This document shows, in pieces, positions 10,200-18,654 of a DNA stretch of 64,000 bases. The notes below the pieces were generated by a model. It was not told the DNA's origin, did no database searches, and saw nothing but the letters and a program-made list of their open reading frames with translations. Made by a program: the position numbers and the translations under genes. Origin of the DNA: Candidatus Raymondbacteria bacterium RIFOXYA2_FULL_49_16 (GTDB lineage Bacteria > Fibrobacterota > OXYB2-FULL-49-7 > XYB2-FULL-49-35); the NCBI GenBank assembly GCA_001789205.1, contig MFYT01000008.1, forward strand, positions 62,001 to 126,000, in the 5' to 3' direction. Within the stretch, counting starts at the first letter, position 1, and the number at the start of each line of letters is the position of its first letter.

Positions 10200-11189
10200 A
10201 TGAAGCGCGCTTTTTCTTCAGAATTTGATTTTATAAGTACACTTAAAAAAAAAATTTGGTCTAATAAAGATAAAAATCTGATAGCCGGAATTGGGGATGA
10301 CTGCGCAGTTCTGGATTTTGGTTCAGCTGAGTATCTTTTAGTTACTACTGACACGTTTAATGAGGAAATCCATTTCAAACAAAGGTATTTATCGCCCTAC
10401 GAGGCTGGTTTTAAAGCAATGTCAGGGGCAATGAGTGATATTGCCGCAATGGGAGGTGTTTGTCGCTATGCCCTTGTCTCATTGTCTGTTCCGTTGAAAT
10501 TATTGAATGGGTTTTTGGTGGATTTTTACCGAGGGATGCAAGGTCCATTAAAAAAGACAGGGGCCTTGCTCATCGGAGGTGATACTACTCGTTCAAAACA
10601 ATATTTTTCAGCTTCAATTACCATACTAGGCCTAACCCAAAAAAGAAGAATAGTACTTCGTTCCGGGGCACAACCTGGCGATAAAGTATTCCTAACCGGT
10701 TTAACGGGCTATTCGCATGCGGGTCTTCTGTTGCTAAAGAAAGGTACTCCTTTTCAGGGATCCGGCTTAAAAAGGGCCTTAAAAAAGCATAAGAGCCCTG
10801 AATTCAGGCATGATATGGTGAAAAAAATATTACAAATGGATCCTACTGCAATGATCGATATAAGCGATGGTCTATCATCGGAGCTCAACCATCTAGCGCA
10901 TTCATCGCAAGTGTCTATTATTATTGATTATACAGCTTTGGATCATGATCCAGTACTCAGAAAAATCGCCCAAGCTTTACATGTCCCTGTTTTGACACTG
11001 ATTATGAACAGTGGGGAAGAATATGAGTTGCTTTTTACCTCCTCCAAAAACAATGAAAAAGCCGGTTTTTTAGAAATTGGTGCTACTTGCAAAGGAAAGC
11101 CAGGAGTATGGATAAGAAAAGATAAAACACTCTTCCCTGTTAAATCTGGCGGATATGATCACTTTGCCGTGACTGGGCAAAAGACTTGA
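10200..11189 (+). CDS. thiL: Thiamine-monophosphate kinase
   Basis: Phosphorylates thiamine monophosphate to thiamine diphosphate with ATP, the last step of cofactor synthesis in the cytosol. 329 residues, normal for ThiL. Motifs in order: IAGIGDDCAVLDF (28-40, metal-binding Asp pair), ATG-binding TTDTFNEEIHF, a second Asp cluster in MSGAMSDIAAMGG (about 74-86), LIGGDTTRS, MIDISDGLSSELNHL and NSGEEYELLF. No other thiamine genes are nearby and no TPP riboswitch is seen in the 116-base upstream gap. Confidence 0.95.
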   Translation: MKRAFSSEFDFISTLKKKIWSNKDKNLIAGIGDDCAVLDFGSAEYLLVTTDTFNEEIHFKQRYLSPYEAGFKAMSGAMSDIAAMGGVCRYALVSLSVPLKLLNGFLVDFYRGMQGPLKKTGALLIGGDTTRSKQYFSASITILGLTQKRRIVLRSGAQPGDKVFLTGLTGYSHAGLLLLKKGTPFQGSGLKRALKKHKSPEFRHDMVKKILQMDPTAMIDISDGLSSELNHLAHSSQVSIIIDYTALDHDPVLRKIAQALHVPVLTLIMNSGEEYELLFTSSKNNEKAGFLEIGATCKGKPGVWIRKDKTLFPVKSGGYDHFAVTGQKT

Positions 11190-11251: not shown

Positions 11252-13120
11252 ATGAAACGCCGCCCCCTGAAAAAAGTCGGAGAAATTCTTATTGAACGAG
11301 GGGTCATTACCCTTGAACAGCTTGCCAAAGGGCTTGAGGAACAAAAGCGTGTTAGCGCCTCTCTGGGAGCATCTCTGATCCGGCTTGGATACGTTGACTA
11401 TAAAACGCTCGAAAAGGTCCTTGGCGATGAATTGGAGAAACTCGAATATAAGAAACTTGGGGAGATGCTGCTTGAAAATAAAGTCATTTCCACGCTCCAA
11501 CTTGCTGAAGCGCTTTCAATTCAGAAAAAAGAGGAGAAAAATAAGCATATTGGTGAAATTCTGATTGAAAGGAAATATCTCACCAGCCAGCAGTTGTTTG
11601 ATGTCCTCAGTCTGCAGTTTGATGTTAAAAGCGTTGAATTGGATAATTTCCTGTTTAAAGAAGAGGCGCTCAACCTTTTGCCATATGAACTAATGTGCGA
11701 ATTGAAGGTGATCCCACTTCAGAAAACACCAACGCACGTATTGATTGCAACTGCGGACCCCTTCAATTTCAATTTAATGAAACAGGTTGAACGGGTATTA
11801 AAAATGGCCGTAGAACCTGTTTTTGCGAAATCAGAGAGCATTTCCTTGTCATTGCAGAAACGATTTTCTGTCACCATCGGGGGCGAAGCATCACCCTCTC
11901 TCAGGGATATTGCGCGACAGTCCGGTTCTGGCGAGAAAAAGGATGATCTTCGCAATCTCGTTCATATGATAATAGAACAGGCTATTACGGAGAACGCAAG
12001 CTTCGTCCATATAGAGCCTTCCGGCAGTGGTTACAGCATACGTTTTAGAATCGATGGCAAACTTCATGTAGAGAGTCCGGTGCAAGGTCAGCTTGCCGAT
12101 GATTTGGTCGACCACCTAAAAGAGACCGCCAATCTCAGCACGGCAAATCGCAGGACAATGCAGACCGGACATTTTCTTTTTCCTATTGGCGGCCGCAGCA
12201 TCGCGTGCAAGCTAACCTCTATCCCTGTGTTGACTGGTTTTGAAACTTTCAGGGAAAAACTTGTTGTGAAAGTGCTTCAACAGACCGGTATGCTCCAGCG
12301 TCTTGATGATGTTGGATTTTATATCGCGGTGCTCGAAAAGTACCAAACGCTCCTGAAAACACGGCAAGGGGTTGTTCTCGTGGTTGGCCCTGCCGATTGC
12401 GGCATCACCACTACTCTGTACGCTTCACTGAGGCATATCAACGATACGGGCCAGCATATCGCTACGATAGAGAAAACTATCGATTGTTTCATTGAAGGGG
12501 TTACACAGACTCAGATAGACCAGGTTCGGGGCCTTGGATTTAAGGAAATGCTGAAATCAACCCTGATTGAAGATGCGGATGCCGTGATGATCGGACGTGT
12601 TGATGATGCGGAAATTGCACGGCTCGCACTCCAGATTGCGATGTCTGGCAGGATGATCCTTGCGGGCATGGCATGTTCCGATGCTACATCGGTCTATGCG
12701 ATGCTCAAGGAAAAAGGGGTGGAAAACTATCTGCTTTCTGCGGGAATTTCAGGGATTCTTGGACAGCGTCTGGTCCGGAAGATATGCGGCCAATGCAGAG
12801 AGTCGTTTACGCCGCCCTCCGAACTCATCGATGGCCTTGGACTGCGTCATAATACCGCATTTTTCAGGGGACGTGGATGCCCAGCATGCAATTTCTCCGG
12901 ATTTAAAGGCAGAATAGGCTTGTTTGAACTCTTTATTCCCGATGAAACGTTGAAACATTCCATAGCGACGGGTCTTTCAGCGGAAGAGATCAGGAGAATT
13001 GCGGTACACAACGGCATGAATACGCTTCGTATGGATGGATTGAAGAAGGCCCTGGAAGGCATTACGACCATTGAACAGGTGCTTGGCACTACACCAAAAG
13101 ATTCGGATCTGCCATTTTAA
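11252..13120 (+). CDS. PilB/GspE-like protein with degenerate ATPase motifs and tandem MshEN domains
   Basis: 622 residues with the architecture of a type IV pilus/type II secretion assembly ATPase. The N-terminus has two or three MshEN-type repeats (about 1-50, 60-110 and 110-205), which in other members bind c-di-GMP. The C-terminal half has the PilB fold and a tetra-Cys zinc site (C512, C515, C543, C546). The catalytic motifs are lost. Walker A reads GPADCGITTT, with I385 in place of the essential Lys. The Asp-box TIED is TIEK (K408). Walker B GEIRD is GRVDD (R449). The His-box HTND is ACSD. The fold and zinc site are kept, so this looks like a binding protein rather than a pseudogene. Next gene uvrD is 8 bases downstream. 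Confidence 0.88.
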   Translation: MKRRPLKKVGEILIERGVITLEQLAKGLEEQKRVSASLGASLIRLGYVDYKTLEKVLGDELEKLEYKKLGEMLLENKVISTLQLAEALSIQKKEEKNKHIGEILIERKYLTSQQLFDVLSLQFDVKSVELDNFLFKEEALNLLPYELMCELKVIPLQKTPTHVLIATADPFNFNLMKQVERVLKMAVEPVFAKSESISLSLQKRFSVTIGGEASPSLRDIARQSGSGEKKDDLRNLVHMIIEQAITENASFVHIEPSGSGYSIRFRIDGKLHVESPVQGQLADDLVDHLKETANLSTANRRTMQTGHFLFPIGGRSIACKLTSIPVLTGFETFREKLVVKVLQQTGMLQRLDDVGFYIAVLEKYQTLLKTRQGVVLVVGPADCGITTTLYASLRHINDTGQHIATIEKTIDCFIEGVTQTQIDQVRGLGFKEMLKSTLIEDADAVMIGRVDDAEIARLALQIAMSGRMILAGMACSDATSVYAMLKEKGVENYLLSAGISGILGQRLVRKICGQCRESFTPPSELIDGLGLRHNTAFFRGRGCPACNFSGFKGRIGLFELFIPDETLKHSIATGLSAEEIRRIAVHNGMNTLRMDGLKKALEGITTIEQVLGTTPKDSDLPF

Positions 13121-13128
13121 AGTACTCT

Positions 13129-15315
13129 ATGGAAATGCACAACGTACTGAACGAGAAACAACGCGAGGCAGTATATACTGATGCAGGACCCCTGCTTGTC
13201 TTTGCCGGCGCCGGGAGTGGAAAAACGCGTGTTATTACGCATAAAATTGCGCGAATGATTTTCGAACATAATGTCTCACCCTACCGGATCATGGCTCTTA
13301 CGTTTACGAATAAGGCTGCCAGGGAAATGGTTGAGAGGATTGAAAACCTTGTCCATGTCTCCGCCAAGGGAATGTGGATAGGTACCTTCCATTCCCAGTG
13401 TGCACGGATTCTCCGCAGAGAGAAAGTGTATGGAGGTGTATTCACAATTTATGATACAGATGATCAAAAGAAATTGCTTAAGAACATCCTTGCTGATCTA
13501 GGGCTTGGCGACAGCAAAAGATTTTCCCCAAACGATGTACAACACAGAATTTCCAGTCTGAAAAACCGGCTGATTACGCCGGTCATGTTCCGGGATGCGG
13601 TGACCAACACCTTTGATGAACTGTTCGTACGCATCTATGCAGAGTACGAACGCCGGCTCTCTGCAAGTCAGGCATTGGATTTTGATGACCTGATCTTCAG
13701 AGTTATTGAACTTTTTAAAGGCAACAACGAGGTATGTGAAAAATACCAGGAAAACATATTGTATCTTCTGGTCGATGAATACCAGGATACCAACCTGGCG
13801 CAATACGAACTGATCAAAATCCTAGCTTCGCGGCACAGGAACATCACGGTCGTCGGCGATGACGACCAGGCAATATACAGCTGGCGCGGCGCGGATATTC
13901 GGAATATACTGGAATTTGAAAAAACTTTTCCTGACGCACATATTGTAAGGCTTGAACAGAACTACCGTTCAACAAAAACCATACTCGATGCCTCAAACAG
14001 TCTCATTAGGCGGAATAAGGAACGAAAAGAGAAATCATTATGGACAGAAAATGAGGGAGGCGAGAAGGTAGACCTCGTTTATGTCGTTGACGAACGGGAC
14101 GAAGCGGCCTATATAGCCCGGCAGGCGCAAGGATCAGACGGGCCTGGAACAGCTGTCTTTTATCGTACCAATGCGCAGTCCCGGTCACTTGAAGAGGCTT
14201 TCAGAAACAATGGAATTCCCTATGTCATTGTCGGAGGTCTTCGGTTCTATGAACGCAAGGAAATCAAGGATGTTCTGGCATATCTGCGACTTATCGTAAA
14301 TCCCGCTGACGATATCAGTCTTGAACGCATAATCAATGTGCCGCGCAGGGGTATTGGCGAAAAGACCATGGACGAGCTGCGCCGGTATGCTCGTGAGAAT
14401 AATCAGGTGCTTTTCCAGGCGGTCCAGAATTATGGACGCCTGACCGGATTAACCCAGCGCGAACGGGACGCCGTAGCGGGTTTTAAAAACAGGTTTGAGG
14501 ATTTCCAGGCATATCCGCGGGACGACCTGAAAAGGTTTGTTTCAGATATTGTTCGTGACAGCGGATATCTTCAATTTCTCGAGCAATCGTCTGAGGAGGG
14601 AGTGGCCGAACGACTGGAGAACGTAGGGGAATTGATCACTGCGGTCCAGGAATACTGCGACCGGACACCAGAGGCAACACTTGAAGGTTTTCTGGAGGAA
14701 GTCTCGTTGATCACCGATATCGATACACTCGCAGATAATGGCGGGAGTCATGTAACGCTCATGACGCTGCACTCATCGAAAGGGCTTGAGTTTGACCGCG
14801 TATTTGTTACCGGAGTCGAAGAAGGGTTGCTCCCTCTGATCAGGGATAATGACGAAAACGATACGGAGGAAGAGCGTCGCCTTATGTATGTCGGTATGAC
14901 GCGTGCCAGAAAAAAACTCTGTCTCATTCACGCAGCCTTCAGATCTCGCTATGGAAGCAGCAGTCAGGCGGTACCGTCATCATTTTTGGATGAGATCTCA
15001 TCAGAATGTTTACGGAAAATCGATAACACAGGCGGACGGTTTCGCGAATTGGCTTCGGCGTCAGGCGGGAGTGCGTATGGCGCCGGACACAAAAGACATC
15101 CTGGAGAAGTTATACCCTTGTTTGAGAATTTTTCCCAGGTTGAATCCACGTACCGGAAAGGCCAGAAAATATACCACCCCATCTGGGGGCCGGGCATGAT
15201 TCTCAGTGTCAGCGGATTCAATGAGAATATGAAAGCTGAAATAAAATTTCAGAACGCTTCCATTAAAAAAGTCATGGTCAAGTATGCACGTCTGGAATTC
15301 GTTGGTGATGAATGA
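13129..15315 (+). CDS. UvrD/PcrA-type superfamily 1 DNA helicase
   Basis: ATP-driven 3'-5' DNA helicase for repair and replication-fork maintenance. 728 residues, normal for UvrD/PcrA. All SF1A motifs are visible: Q-motif LNEKQREAV, Walker A GAGSGKT (27-33), Walker B VDEYQDTN, motif III GDDDQAIYSWRGAD, motif IV LEQNYRST, motif V TLHSSKGLEFDRVFV and motif VI RRLMYVGMTRAR. The C-terminal 50 residues (KGQKIYHPIWGPGMI and following) form the Tudor-like tail that contacts RNA polymerase in PcrA. The ATG at 13135 is an alternative start. It overlaps nothing and sits between the PilB-like gene and gatC. Confidence 0.95.
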   Translation: MEMHNVLNEKQREAVYTDAGPLLVFAGAGSGKTRVITHKIARMIFEHNVSPYRIMALTFTNKAAREMVERIENLVHVSAKGMWIGTFHSQCARILRREKVYGGVFTIYDTDDQKKLLKNILADLGLGDSKRFSPNDVQHRISSLKNRLITPVMFRDAVTNTFDELFVRIYAEYERRLSASQALDFDDLIFRVIELFKGNNEVCEKYQENILYLLVDEYQDTNLAQYELIKILASRHRNITVVGDDDQAIYSWRGADIRNILEFEKTFPDAHIVRLEQNYRSTKTILDASNSLIRRNKERKEKSLWTENEGGEKVDLVYVVDERDEAAYIARQAQGSDGPGTAVFYRTNAQSRSLEEAFRNNGIPYVIVGGLRFYERKEIKDVLAYLRLIVNPADDISLERIINVPRRGIGEKTMDELRRYARENNQVLFQAVQNYGRLTGLTQRERDAVAGFKNRFEDFQAYPRDDLKRFVSDIVRDSGYLQFLEQSSEEGVAERLENVGELITAVQEYCDRTPEATLEGFLEEVSLITDIDTLADNGGSHVTLMTLHSSKGLEFDRVFVTGVEEGLLPLIRDNDENDTEEERRLMYVGMTRARKKLCLIHAAFRSRYGSSSQAVPSSFLDEISSECLRKIDNTGGRFRELASASGGSAYGAGHKRHPGEVIPLFENFSQVESTYRKGQKIYHPIWGPGMILSVSGFNENMKAEIKFQNASIKKVMVKYARLEFVGDE

Positions 15316-15328
15316 AAGGGATCGTATC

Positions 15329-15613
15329 ATGGGTGTTACACGGGACGATGTTGTAAAAATAGCGGGATTGTCCCGACTGCGTCTGGAAGAGGGCGAGATC
15401 GACACGTATATGCGCGATCTGAACGCCATTCTCAGATATATCGAACAGCTTAATACGCTCGATGTCGCGGCTGTTCAGCCTATGGAGTCGGTATATTTTT
15501 CACCTGACAGATGGAAGGCGGATATACCTGTTGATGAAAGGCGGGGAACCGACCGTCTTCTTAACGGGCCAGAAATAGACGGCGCTTTTTTTGTTGTACC
15601 CAGGGTCATATAA
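15329..15613 (+). CDS. gatC: Aspartyl/glutamyl-tRNA amidotransferase subunit C
   Basis: Small stabilising subunit of the GatCAB complex, which converts mis-charged Asp-tRNA(Asn) or Glu-tRNA(Gln) to the amide. 94 residues, the usual length. The N-terminal VTRDDVVKIAGLSRLRLEEG helix and the later VQPMESV and C-terminal FFVVPRVI are family hallmarks. The ATG at 15329 is preferred because AAAGGG lies 8 bases upstream. gatA and gatB are not in the window. Because asnS is present (47907-49292), the complex is probably needed mainly for Gln-tRNA(Gln). Confidence 0.92.
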   Translation: MGVTRDDVVKIAGLSRLRLEEGEIDTYMRDLNAILRYIEQLNTLDVAAVQPMESVYFSPDRWKADIPVDERRGTDRLLNGPEIDGAFFVVPRVI

Positions 15614-15616
15614 AAT

Positions 15617-16363
15617 ATGAAAATATATGCGGTTATTCCGGCACGTTATGCCTCAACACGTTTTCCCGGAAAACCGTTGTGCCTTCTTTGCGGCAAACCC
15701 ATGATTCAGTGGACATATGAAAGAACCGCATGTCTCAGGGTACTTTCGGACACTCTAGTCGCCACGGATGACACACGCATTGCACAATGTGTACGTAATT
15801 TTGGTGGCAAGGTGGTCATGACAAGATCATCTATAAAAACAGGTACCGATAGGGTGGCCGCAGCATTGCACGGGAAACACTATGATTGGGTGTTCAACAT
15901 CCAGGGTGATGAACCCTTGATCAATTCTGGCCTGTTAACGGCGATGGTTCGCAAAACTGCCGCAATAACTCCGCCCGCCATTATTACGGCCGTACGAAAA
16001 ATTGAGCATCAGGATGACCTGGAAAATCAGAATGTGGTAAAAGTTGTCTTGACACAGGATGGCCGTGCACTGTATTTTTCGCGTGCATCGGTTCCAGATA
16101 CCAGACGTTCGAAGCGCAGCGGAAGCGCAGTTTTATACCGGCATATTGGCGTATACTTGTTCCATCGGACAGCGCTTGATCGCTTTATACGCCGCGGCGC
16201 GACCGCGCTCGAGAAAGTTGAACAGCTCGAGCAATTGCGCGCGCTTGAAATGGGTATACCCATTTATGCCGTCAAGACCGGTTATTCTCCACACGGAGTC
16301 GACGTACCGGCCGATGTTGCTGTTGTTGAACGATATATTAGAAGGTATGTTTACAAAAAATGA
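15617..16363 (+). CDS. kdsB: 3-deoxy-manno-octulosonate cytidylyltransferase
   Basis: Activates KDO with CTP to CMP-KDO for the inner core of lipopolysaccharide. 248 residues, normal. The N-terminal nucleotide-binding loop IPARYASTRFPGKPL, the DDTRI segment, FNIQGDEPLI (metal site) and HGVDVPADV near the C-terminus identify it. It shows that the organism makes KDO-containing LPS. It starts 3 bases after gatC and overlaps the ComEA-like gene by 17 bases. Confidence 0.96.
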   Translation: MKIYAVIPARYASTRFPGKPLCLLCGKPMIQWTYERTACLRVLSDTLVATDDTRIAQCVRNFGGKVVMTRSSIKTGTDRVAAALHGKHYDWVFNIQGDEPLINSGLLTAMVRKTAAITPPAIITAVRKIEHQDDLENQNVVKVVLTQDGRALYFSRASVPDTRRSKRSGSAVLYRHIGVYLFHRTALDRFIRRGATALEKVEQLEQLRALEMGIPIYAVKTGYSPHGVDVPADVAVVERYIRRYVYKK

Positions 16364-16730
16364 ACTGGCCTTTTTGGCCTTTGTGGTTCTTTGCACTATT
16401 GCGGGTGGTGTTATTCTTGTGACAAAAGGACCGGTTCTCCAGCCGGTGCTTGCCGTCCTAAAGAATGAAAACGCTTCAGCGCCCTGCGCGGAGAGCATTG
16501 AGCACTCGGAGTCCGCTTCGGAAACAAAGAGCATGCAACAATGTGTGAATATAAATACGGCTCAGGTATCGGAATTGGTTTTGTTACCTGGAGTAGGACA
16601 AAAGACTGCTGAAAATATTGTTGCCTTTCGGAACAAACATGGCAGATTCTGGAATATGAATGATGTAGTAAGCGTAAAAGGGGTAGGAAAGAAAAAACTT
16701 GAAAAGCTAAAGCACCTCATCACATTTTAA
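16347..16730 (+). CDS. ComEA-like helix-hairpin-helix protein
   Basis: 127 residues: one N-terminal membrane segment (about 7-27), a polar linker of about 40 residues, and a C-terminal double helix-hairpin-helix (VNINTAQVSELVLLPGVGQK ... VSVKGVGKKKLEKL). This is the ComEA layout. ComEA binds incoming DNA outside the inner membrane during transformation. The start ATG at 16347 was chosen so the membrane segment lies at the N-terminus; its ribosome site is weak and an ATG at 16311 is possible. Clustering with pilus genes fits a DNA-uptake role, which is inference. Confidence 0.8.
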   Translation: MFTKNELAFLAFVVLCTIAGGVILVTKGPVLQPVLAVLKNENASAPCAESIEHSESASETKSMQQCVNINTAQVSELVLLPGVGQKTAENIVAFRNKHGRFWNMNDVVSVKGVGKKKLEKLKHLITF

Positions 16731-16736
16731 GGTATA

Positions 16737-17753
16737 ATGGTTGTTATGGCTGAACCAATAATGGAGTCCATTCTCGGTATCGAAATTTCAGAGAATGCGG
16801 TAAAACTGATACAACGGTCCCTGGTGACCCAGACTATCGATGTGGTTCATAGCGAGCCGCTATCACCTGATCTTTCTGCCAAACCCGCATATCTAGCCGA
16901 AGTATTCAGGAAGATATTAAAGCAATATAGACGGCAATTGAAAACCAAAAACGCCGTTGTTTCCATTCCTTCATACATGTCTTTTGTTTCCATTGTTCCT
17001 ATCGATCCCGAGGATTCGGATATCGACAGCCAGGTAGAATGGGAAATCGAACAACAGAGCGTTGGAAAACCCGGCAATTCCCTTAATTTTGATTATACGG
17101 AACTTACTGATTACCAGCCGGTTTCAATAGGGGAAGGTCCGAATGCAGGAGATTCTGATGCTGAAAATATTGGAGCCGTTCAGGAGAAAGCATCGCACAA
17201 ATACTATTTAGCGGCAGGCGCCTCGCGAGAAAGAATCGAAGCAATTACCAATGCCTTGAAAAAAGCCAAAGTGCGGCCATTGATCATGGATGTGGATATT
17301 TTAGCGCTGGCCAATGTTTTTGAATTCTCCTATCCGGAAGATCAATTGGAGTTTATCGGCATTATCCATGTTTCAGCCGATAAGGTGTCAGCAATTCTCG
17401 TGAGAAACGGCACTTATGTGGACAGCTTTATCAGGGTCGTGCTTAATCAAGGCGACATTGCCGGTCTGAAAAAACTCGGTCAATCTATTCAACGTGAATT
17501 TGAGAATCGCGCGTCAAAATCAATCGGTGGGGGAGTGGTAAAGAAAATTATGCTCGCTGGGGAGAATGTTTTGAATGCCGGTTATCGTGAGGCCTTGAGT
17601 TCAGGTTTTTCCAAACCTGTGGAGGTCTTGGATCCTTTCAGACGGATCACCATCCAGGCAAAAATTGAAAAGAATGTTAGTCAGCTCGGTCCTGCATTTG
17701 CCGTCGTTGTCGGCCTTACCCTCCGAACACCAGACGGGGCTGGCGATGATTAA
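16737..17753 (+). CDS. Type IV pilus assembly protein PilM-like
   Basis: Actin-like (ASKHA fold) cytoplasmic protein of the pilus alignment complex, 338 residues. The phosphate-1-type strand (SILGIEISENAVKLIQ), the segment VVSIPSYMSFVSIVPI, a DSQVEWEIEQ helix and LIMDVDILALANVF match PilM. An acidic, Ala/Glu-rich loop at about residues 130-150 is an insertion. An ATG at 16746 is an alternative start. The PilN-like gene overlaps its end by 8 bases, the normal pilM-pilN order. No pilO, pilP or pilQ follows. Confidence 0.82.
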   Translation: MVVMAEPIMESILGIEISENAVKLIQRSLVTQTIDVVHSEPLSPDLSAKPAYLAEVFRKILKQYRRQLKTKNAVVSIPSYMSFVSIVPIDPEDSDIDSQVEWEIEQQSVGKPGNSLNFDYTELTDYQPVSIGEGPNAGDSDAENIGAVQEKASHKYYLAAGASRERIEAITNALKKAKVRPLIMDVDILALANVFEFSYPEDQLEFIGIIHVSADKVSAILVRNGTYVDSFIRVVLNQGDIAGLKKLGQSIQREFENRASKSIGGGVVKKIMLAGENVLNAGYREALSSGFSKPVEVLDPFRRITIQAKIEKNVSQLGPAFAVVVGLTLRTPDGAGDD

Positions 17754-18654
17754 AATAAACCTGCTCCATACAAAAGTTCACGACAGGCGGAAACGACGTT
17801 TTCCTATAAAGGTCTTTCTTGCCCTTGCTTTGTTTATTGCCGCTGGATATGCGTTATTTCAGGCCAACCATATTTATTCTGAGAAAAAAGGAATGAAGGT
17901 GGTCAAACGCCAACGCATTGTCAATCTGAAACGCGATTGTACTCCGTTTGATGTTGTCGAGGAAACTGTGGATGACATTCATGGCGGACGATTTAAAGTT
18001 AAAAACCTTAATCGTCTGAGTTCACCGGCGCACTTATCAGTCAATGAGAAAAAATTATACGAACGATTATACGTCAATACTGTTTTTGATGCGTTGAATT
18101 CTGCGATAAAGCCTGGGATGGGGTTTAATACAATTTCTATAGACAATTACGGTAATTTATTTGTCTATGGTATCACCAAAACCAGGGAAGAAGCCGAGGC
18201 GTTCCGTGCAGATCTTGAAAAGCAGGAATGTATCCTAAACGTTGAGGAACTCCAGTTTAAGGATGTTTTTAGGGAAGACCGGCTCCTGTTTGCCCTGAAG
18301 GGTTTTCTCAGCTACAACGTCATTGAAAAATATTACGAGGATGATACGTGGGAAAAGAAGGAAGTAATCAGTGCTAGCAAGAAAACAGTTCTCGAAAACG
18401 TTATCGTTGTGGGACAAGGTGAGGGCGTTTCCCGATTCCGAAACATTGAATGGGGTGATTTCGAAGAATATGGCACTGATAAAAAGCATACTGTCCGCTT
18501 TCAAATAGAGTCGGCCTATCCCGCTCTCATGGGGTTTATCAAGCATCTGTATCGAGTTAACTACCAAGTCGGGTATTCCCAGATAAATCTTACTTCAGTT
18601 GGGAACCAGAAAATTCTTGCTGCCATTGAAATGTATATTTATTCGAAAAATTGA
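17746..18654 (+). CDS. PilN/PilO-like inner-membrane protein
   Basis: 302 residues. It starts MIKINLLHTK, the short cytoplasmic PilN peptide that docks on PilM, followed by a basic stretch and one membrane helix (VFLALALFIAAGYALF, about 26-42) and a periplasmic domain. It is about 100 residues longer than PilN. The last 70 residues (VRFQIESAYPALMGFIKHLY, then a strand pattern) resemble the ferredoxin-like end of PilO. So it may combine both roles; that is inference from pattern only. It overlaps pilM by 8 bases and is followed 1 base later by rsmD. Confidence 0.65.
   Translation: MIKINLLHTKVHDRRKRRFPIKVFLALALFIAAGYALFQANHIYSEKKGMKVVKRQRIVNLKRDCTPFDVVEETVDDIHGGRFKVKNLNRLSSPAHLSVNEKKLYERLYVNTVFDALNSAIKPGMGFNTISIDNYGNLFVYGITKTREEAEAFRADLEKQECILNVEELQFKDVFREDRLLFALKGFLSYNVIEKYYEDDTWEKKEVISASKKTVLENVIVVGQGEGVSRFRNIEWGDFEEYGTDKKHTVRFQIESAYPALMGFIKHLYRVNYQVGYSQINLTSVGNQKILAAIEMYIYSKN

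Follow-up and report, generated by a model that had tools for sequence, protein, structure and literature searches.

What becomes of a PilB-type protein once the catalytic residues of its motor have been replaced? The window, by which we mean the whole stretch of 64,000 nucleotides that was analysed, raises this question through a forward-strand frame (11252-13120) that runs uninterrupted over 622 codons. We refer to its 622-residue product as X and to its source genome as G000. A sequence-only reading had described X as a PilB/GspE-like protein with altered catalytic motifs, an intact zinc site and retained MshEN domains, and had proposed that it is a conserved non-catalytic relative that may sense c-di-GMP or regulate a genuine PilB. 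The features of X and of its neighbourhood are given here, one per line; near-invariant residues are those at the 171 columns where conservation among 62 intact orthologues reaches 95% or more.

10200..11189, + strand: thiL, upstream neighbour in the conserved block (TIGR01379 255 bits, synteny)
11252..13120, + strand: X, putative pseudo-ATPase orthologue of the Fibrobacterota PilB-type ATPase, 622 aa (open frame, T2SSE 242 bits, phylum synteny, AlphaFold)
11252..11617, + strand: two tandem MshEN-type modules with four 24-residue half motifs, residues 1-122 (NF053729, two stretches)
11618..11869, + strand: MshEN C-terminal subdomain, residues 123-206 (PF05157 50 bits)
11942..12286, + strand: N2 domain, residues 231-345 (19/39 near-invariant residues lost)
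12287..12769, + strand: RecA-like motor core, residues 346-506, catalytic motifs gone (41/75 near-invariant residues lost)
12386..12415, + strand: degenerate Walker A, GPADCGITTT at residues 379-388, family Lys replaced by Ile385 (motif reading, orthologue alignment)
12464..12475, + strand: degenerate Asp box, TIEK at residues 405-408, Lys at the Asp408 position (motif reading, orthologue alignment)
12593..12607, + strand: degenerate Walker B, GRVDD at residues 448-452, Arg at the catalytic Glu449 position (motif reading, orthologue alignment)
12671..12682, + strand: degenerate His box, ACSD at residues 474-477 in place of HTND (motif reading, orthologue alignment)
12770..13117, + strand: tetra-Cys zinc site and C-terminal region, residues 507-622, well conserved (1/21 near-invariant residues lost)
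13129..15315, + strand: pcrA/uvrD-type helicase, beginning 8 bases past the X stop (synteny)
15284..15613, + strand: gatC-like gene of the conserved block (synteny)
15617..16363, + strand: kdsB of the conserved block (NCBIfam, synteny)
16059..16730, + strand: comEA-like helix-hairpin-helix protein; the listed frame overlaps kdsB and the real start is probably later (PF12836 71 bits)
16737..17753, + strand: pilM (PF11104 70 bits, TIGR01175 63 bits)
17665..18654, + strand: pilN-like gene, real start probably near 17747 (43% identity to the gene at the same position in G001)

Every motif quoted in the sequence-only reading was confirmed, as were the pilM, pilN-like and ComEA-like neighbours. Descent and fold place X among the PilB/GspE traffic ATPases, given its T2SSE domain (PF00437), PilB fold and gene order. 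By its motifs X does not qualify as an active PilB, the Walker A Lys, Asp box, catalytic Glu and His box all being replaced. The tetra-Cys site that defines the zinc-binding subgroup of PilB/GspE is complete (C512, C515, C543 and C546), as had been claimed, and these cysteines are invariant in 65 of 65 aligned sequences, degenerate copies included. Against NCBIfam models, X scores 329 bits for GspE (equivalog cut-off 630) and 328 bits for PilB (TIGR02538, cut-off 676), although intact syntenic orthologues from the phylum also miss the latter cut-off (565-604 bits), so that it does not by itself discriminate an active PilB. The c-di-GMP (MshE) motif domain, NF053729, is matched at 90 bits over two stretches (cut-off 38).

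Is X a member of a recognizable family in this phylum? A search of Fibrobacterota found matches to X in 146 of 151 genomes, most best matches sharing 31-38% identity along almost the entire protein. The gene order thiL–X–pcrA–gatC–kdsB–comEA–pilM–pilN–rsmD–coaD, whole or in part, is common to most of the 20 loci examined. Most Fibrobacterota thus have, within one conserved block, a PilB-type ATPase to which X is orthologous. The branch leading to X is long in the ATPase tree and very long also in a tree of X proteins; constraining X to group with the remaining X proteins was not rejected and gave a likelihood slightly above that of the free tree (p-AU 0.54). Sampling near the window is sparse, its family being represented by one genome and its class by two among those compared.

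In G002 and G007 the X orthologue may be the main PilB, because a pilT–pilC operon is present there with no adjacent pilB; G027 encodes a separate PilB above the NCBIfam cut-off within a pilB–pilT–pilC cluster. The only genome of the same order that was compared, the draft genome G001, has no X at the locus and retains pilM/pilN and PilT. Because G001 lacks X there yet keeps pilM and pilN, X is dispensable in that lineage position. In G029 and G065 thiL lies so near pcrA that X cannot fit between them, and four genomes of genus g12 contain no match to X or to its ATPase relatives.

Within the block around X, a few further observations were made. The pilN-like product is 43% identical to its G001 counterpart, PilM only 27%, and a Pfam search with the pilN-like gene returned no match. 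Third-position GC is lower in thiL (0.34) than in X, pcrA, kdsB, sppA and pilM (0.44-0.50). Scans for promoters and terminators found sites no more numerous than in shuffled sequences. PilM/PilN-like genes are retained also in G022 (L324, 6418-8309), where neither an X-related ATPase nor a FliF match was found. Recruitment of PilM/PilN to the flagellum, described in Campylobacterota (PMC11870540), was considered; it would be possible in G000, which has FliF, but is not needed to account for these genes, as G022 keeps them with neither found.

We then asked how widely the catalytic residues have been lost. At the columns of the combined alignment that correspond to K385, D408, E449 and H474, all 62 reference orthologues carry K, D, E and H respectively, which rules out a family-wide loss. 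The motifs were intact in each of the first 29 orthologues read, a set that left out family f7, and in the next batch except for two f7 genomes, G067 and G021. The G067 copy reads GPQASGRTTT, TIEK, VSESGD and RAGD at the four motifs; that of G021 reads GPKGGGKSTT, TIENP, ISSIQE and PRFD. Because the latter still has its Walker A Lys, it may have retained ATP binding. Each copy is open over more than 620 codons, is flanked by thiL and pcrA, and retains the four cysteines. The loss is therefore neither unique to G000 nor explicable solely as a single decayed copy; it extends beyond one genome in frames that have been kept, as would be expected of a natural pseudo-ATPase lineage. The description of X as a conserved non-catalytic relative accordingly holds as regards its own sequence and the f7 copies, but not for the family as a whole.

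The universal presence of these residues in intact orthologues also bears on whether X could still be an ATPase that uses replacement residues. Gly379, Pro380 and Gly384 of the P-loop remain, together with a Thr at Ser/Thr position 386 and Glu407 of the Asp box. With the Walker A Lys, catalytic Glu, Asp408 and His box all gone, we regard such activity as very improbable.

The losses appear to have separate origins. In a tree of the neighbouring PcrA (a single gene, analysed with a 'quick' method), G000 and G001 group together (support 100) far from G067 and G021 (99), which are nested in another order; the long branches of the X proteins make their own tree a weak guide. From this separation it follows that the catalytic motifs were lost at least twice in Fibrobacterota. 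One shared loss for G000 and f7 is disfavoured by the same distance, though TIEK occurs in both X and the G067 copy. The f7 loss is probably older than the split between its two genera, because the X proteins of G067 and G021 pair with support 97 and have eight identical replacements at near-invariant columns.

To place X among the other secretion and pilus genes of its host, we surveyed the G000 assembly (5.43 Mb in 112 contigs, 100% complete, 0.63% contamination). The genome encodes three further GspE/PilB-type proteins with intact motifs (on contigs C42, C23 and C27) and one CpaF-type ATPase (C100). All three intact proteins sit in T2SS-like operons, with pseudopilin-like genes, a T2SSF protein and a secretin nearby on the contig. 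No PilT (TIGR01420) scored above cut-off in this draft genome, the sole exception among ten searched, and no PilC-type protein was found in it outside the T2SS-like operons and Tad loci, where all of its T2SSF proteins lie. Two components expected of a type IVa pilus system, the PilT retraction ATPase and the PilC platform protein, were thus not found in G000; a 2016 survey had counted two to three PilT genes in each of the Fibrobacteres genomes available to it (PMC4704652). A general tie between loss of catalysis and loss of PilT was rejected, because the f7 genomes retain both PilT and PilC.

These results leave the earlier suggestion that X regulates a genuine PilB unsupported in G000: the search for an intact pilB elsewhere in the genome returned GspE-type ATPases in secretin/pseudopilin operons of their own, and no PilT/PilC-type partner. 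A related possibility is that X joins an active GspE/PilB in mixed rings and tunes that motor, the active sites between subunits being completed partly in trans. Interactions between paralogous ATPases have been reported and hetero-oligomers proposed (PMC11656802), and G000 offers three intact candidate partners. Each of these, however, has its own T2SS-like operon and is only 32-35% identical to X, in which the conserved Arg positions R320, R329 and R340 are moreover replaced, and we judge mixed rings improbable.

Two other arrangements in this genome were recorded. The T2SS-like operons on C23 and C27 (L067 and L068) are closely similar, and their GspE proteins lie on short sister branches. 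A secretin and two pilin-like genes on C72 (L138, 9905-12806) have no GspE-type ATPase alongside, whereas their orthologues in G001, G007 and G021 adjoin one.

If catalysis has gone, is X merely decaying? Of the 171 near-invariant columns, 73 are lost in X, 50 in G067 and 60 in G021, and in each copy the losses concentrate in the N2 domain and motor core: 60/114 there versus 13/57 elsewhere in X (p=1.5e-4), 41/114 versus 9/57 in G067 (p=0.004) and 50/114 versus 10/57 in G021 (p=4e-4). The N-terminal modules are mostly spared; the tandem MshEN modules of X have lost 6 of 23 near-invariant residues. The C-terminal region of G021 has lost 6 of 21. The motor of X is 0.33 identical to orthologues that are 0.71 identical to one another, and over residues 507-617 the corresponding values are 0.47 and 0.56. 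The same positions tend to be affected, with 24 lost in all three copies where 14.1 are expected (p=1e-4), and 23 versus 15.8 expected within the N2 domain and motor alone (p=0.002). No copy has a stop. In simulations of neutral decay to equal damage, which apply random substitution to an intact orthologue and ignore indels and selection before the loss, stops averaged 6.8-13 and were never zero. The stop-free frames thus argue against long neutral decay; they do not prove present function.

One could nevertheless suppose that X is under relaxed constraint, has no selected function now and, its role as a motor having become superfluous, is slowly disappearing. The loci and genomes without X described above, its very long branch and the failure to find PilT and a PilC-type partner in G000 all fit this account. 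It sits poorly with frames free of stops and frameshifts where neutrality predicts 7-13 stops, with damage centred on the catalytic domains in three copies, and with the same state in two f7 genera whose X proteins form a supported clade; overall we consider it unlikely, though it is the most serious of the competing explanations. That the motifs are an artefact of assembly or contamination is scarcely credible. Although the assembly is a draft of 112 contigs, it is scored 100% complete and 0.63% contaminated, X stands in the ancestral gene order on a 192-kb contig, and sequencing errors would not be expected to give dozens of substitutions scattered over a frame that stays open. The sequence-only reading had held that a normal Walker A Lys in orthologues would point to a single decayed copy or an assembly error. 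Such a Lys is universal among the 62 reference orthologues, and both outcomes are nonetheless disfavoured, because there are three open frames in at least two independent lineages with damage centred on the catalytic domains and no stops.

Structure prediction is consistent with a retained architecture. An AlphaFold2 model of X built from 30 aligned sequences (mean pLDDT 83.9, pTM 0.58) has pLDDT values of 84-95 over the greater part of the motor core and generally higher than 90 in the C-terminal region, and its best PDB match by Foldseek is Thermus PilF (5oiu; TMt 0.93, rmsd 2.1, E 1e-42). X is thus predicted to keep the complete PilB fold, comprising MshEN-like modules, N2 domain, RecA-like core and zinc/C-terminal region, with the proviso that the alignment consisted mostly of active relatives, which such a model would tend to resemble.

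Does X read c-di-GMP? MshEN domains bind this nucleotide via two 24-residue motifs that depend on their Arg, Leu, Gly and Gln positions (PMC5013675), and in the GSPII-A module of Thermus PilF minor departures are part of the reason why binding is lost (PMC12002112). The MshEN domains are kept in X as regards fold and profile match, with several contact positions altered. The second motif of module 1 ends with Glu where Gln is expected. Module 2 has Lys in place of both turn glycines; its second motif begins with His, which replaces the second stacking Arg, and its linker exceeds the usual five residues by two. A relaxed motif, RLGxx..G..xxxxLxxxLxxQ, matches only the first of the four half motifs of X; intact orthologues too miss some. 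In module 2 of G067 both motifs match this consensus, and in G021 one does. A c-di-GMP role is therefore weak for X, whose MshEN motifs are degraded, and binding by it appears doubtful, while the f7 copies, with N-terminal modules nearly intact, plausibly still read the nucleotide. MshEN-like stretches were seen also in an 889-codon frame of G000 (L069, near 5066 of C85) and an 887-codon frame of G001 (L074, near 8837 of C702), neither a T2SSE ATPase by the searches run.

Taken together, the retention of X at full length in its ancestral place suggests a job other than powering pili. We propose, with a probability of roughly 0.6, that X is a pseudo-ATPase kept as a non-motor scaffold, adaptor or conformational signal on the PilM/PilN platform. 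A vertically inherited PilB-type ATPase would have become a protein for which ATP hydrolysis is probably impossible, judging from its motifs; it would dock on the PilM/PilN inner-membrane platform encoded in its own block and, once docked, act in one of these capacities. We infer such a non-motor subunit because pilM and pilN lie in the X block and because of three precedents: PilF of Thermus attaches to PilMNO by way of PilM (PMC6325625), Myxococcus xanthus PilB K327A has no ATPase activity and still drives EPS production (PMC5544727), and Walker-dead PilT of Vibrio cholerae still supports PilU-driven retraction (PMC11656802). Weighing against the proposal are the dispensability of X in G001, the failure to find PilT and a PilC-type partner in G000, and, for the G021 copy, its Walker A Lys and its six C-terminal losses. 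A broader account, in which a motor turned into a stable non-catalytic PilM/PilN scaffold or signal on at least two independent occasions in the phylum, with c-di-GMP reading in f7 and no type IVa motor left in G000, is offered more tentatively, at somewhat less than even odds.

In a literature search of incomplete coverage, no naturally occurring PilB or GspE pseudo-ATPase was met with, and the ATPase-independent roles of PilB that it found concern engineered mutants only. If our reading is right, a natural lineage that dropped its catalytic residues and retained the remainder of the protein would show that a second role of PilB can be selected on its own, and X and the f7 copies would be natural separation-of-function proteins with which to test that role.

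Several known systems bear comparison with X. PilB, the type IV-A pilus assembly ATPase (TIGR02538), agrees with it in domain order, fold and tetra-Cys site; X differs in its missing catalytic motifs, its score of 328 bits and the lack of a PilT/PilC-type partner found in G000. V. cholerae MshE has the same architecture of 24-residue c-di-GMP motifs, with contact positions present there of which several are replaced in X (PMC5013675). Thermus thermophilus PilF, the best structural match, likewise carries several N-terminal GSPII/MshEN modules, but it is an active ATPase with three modules, whereas X lacks the catalytic residues and has a tandem pair of MshEN-type modules. M. xanthus PilB K327A is a single-residue laboratory mutant and X a natural protein with dozens of changes; that mutant, lacking the Walker A Lys, builds no pili and yet functions in EPS regulation. 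Walker-dead PilT acting with PilU is engineered and belongs to a retraction system whose PilT was not found in G000, but it is a motor-family protein that contributes without hydrolysis, as we propose for X.
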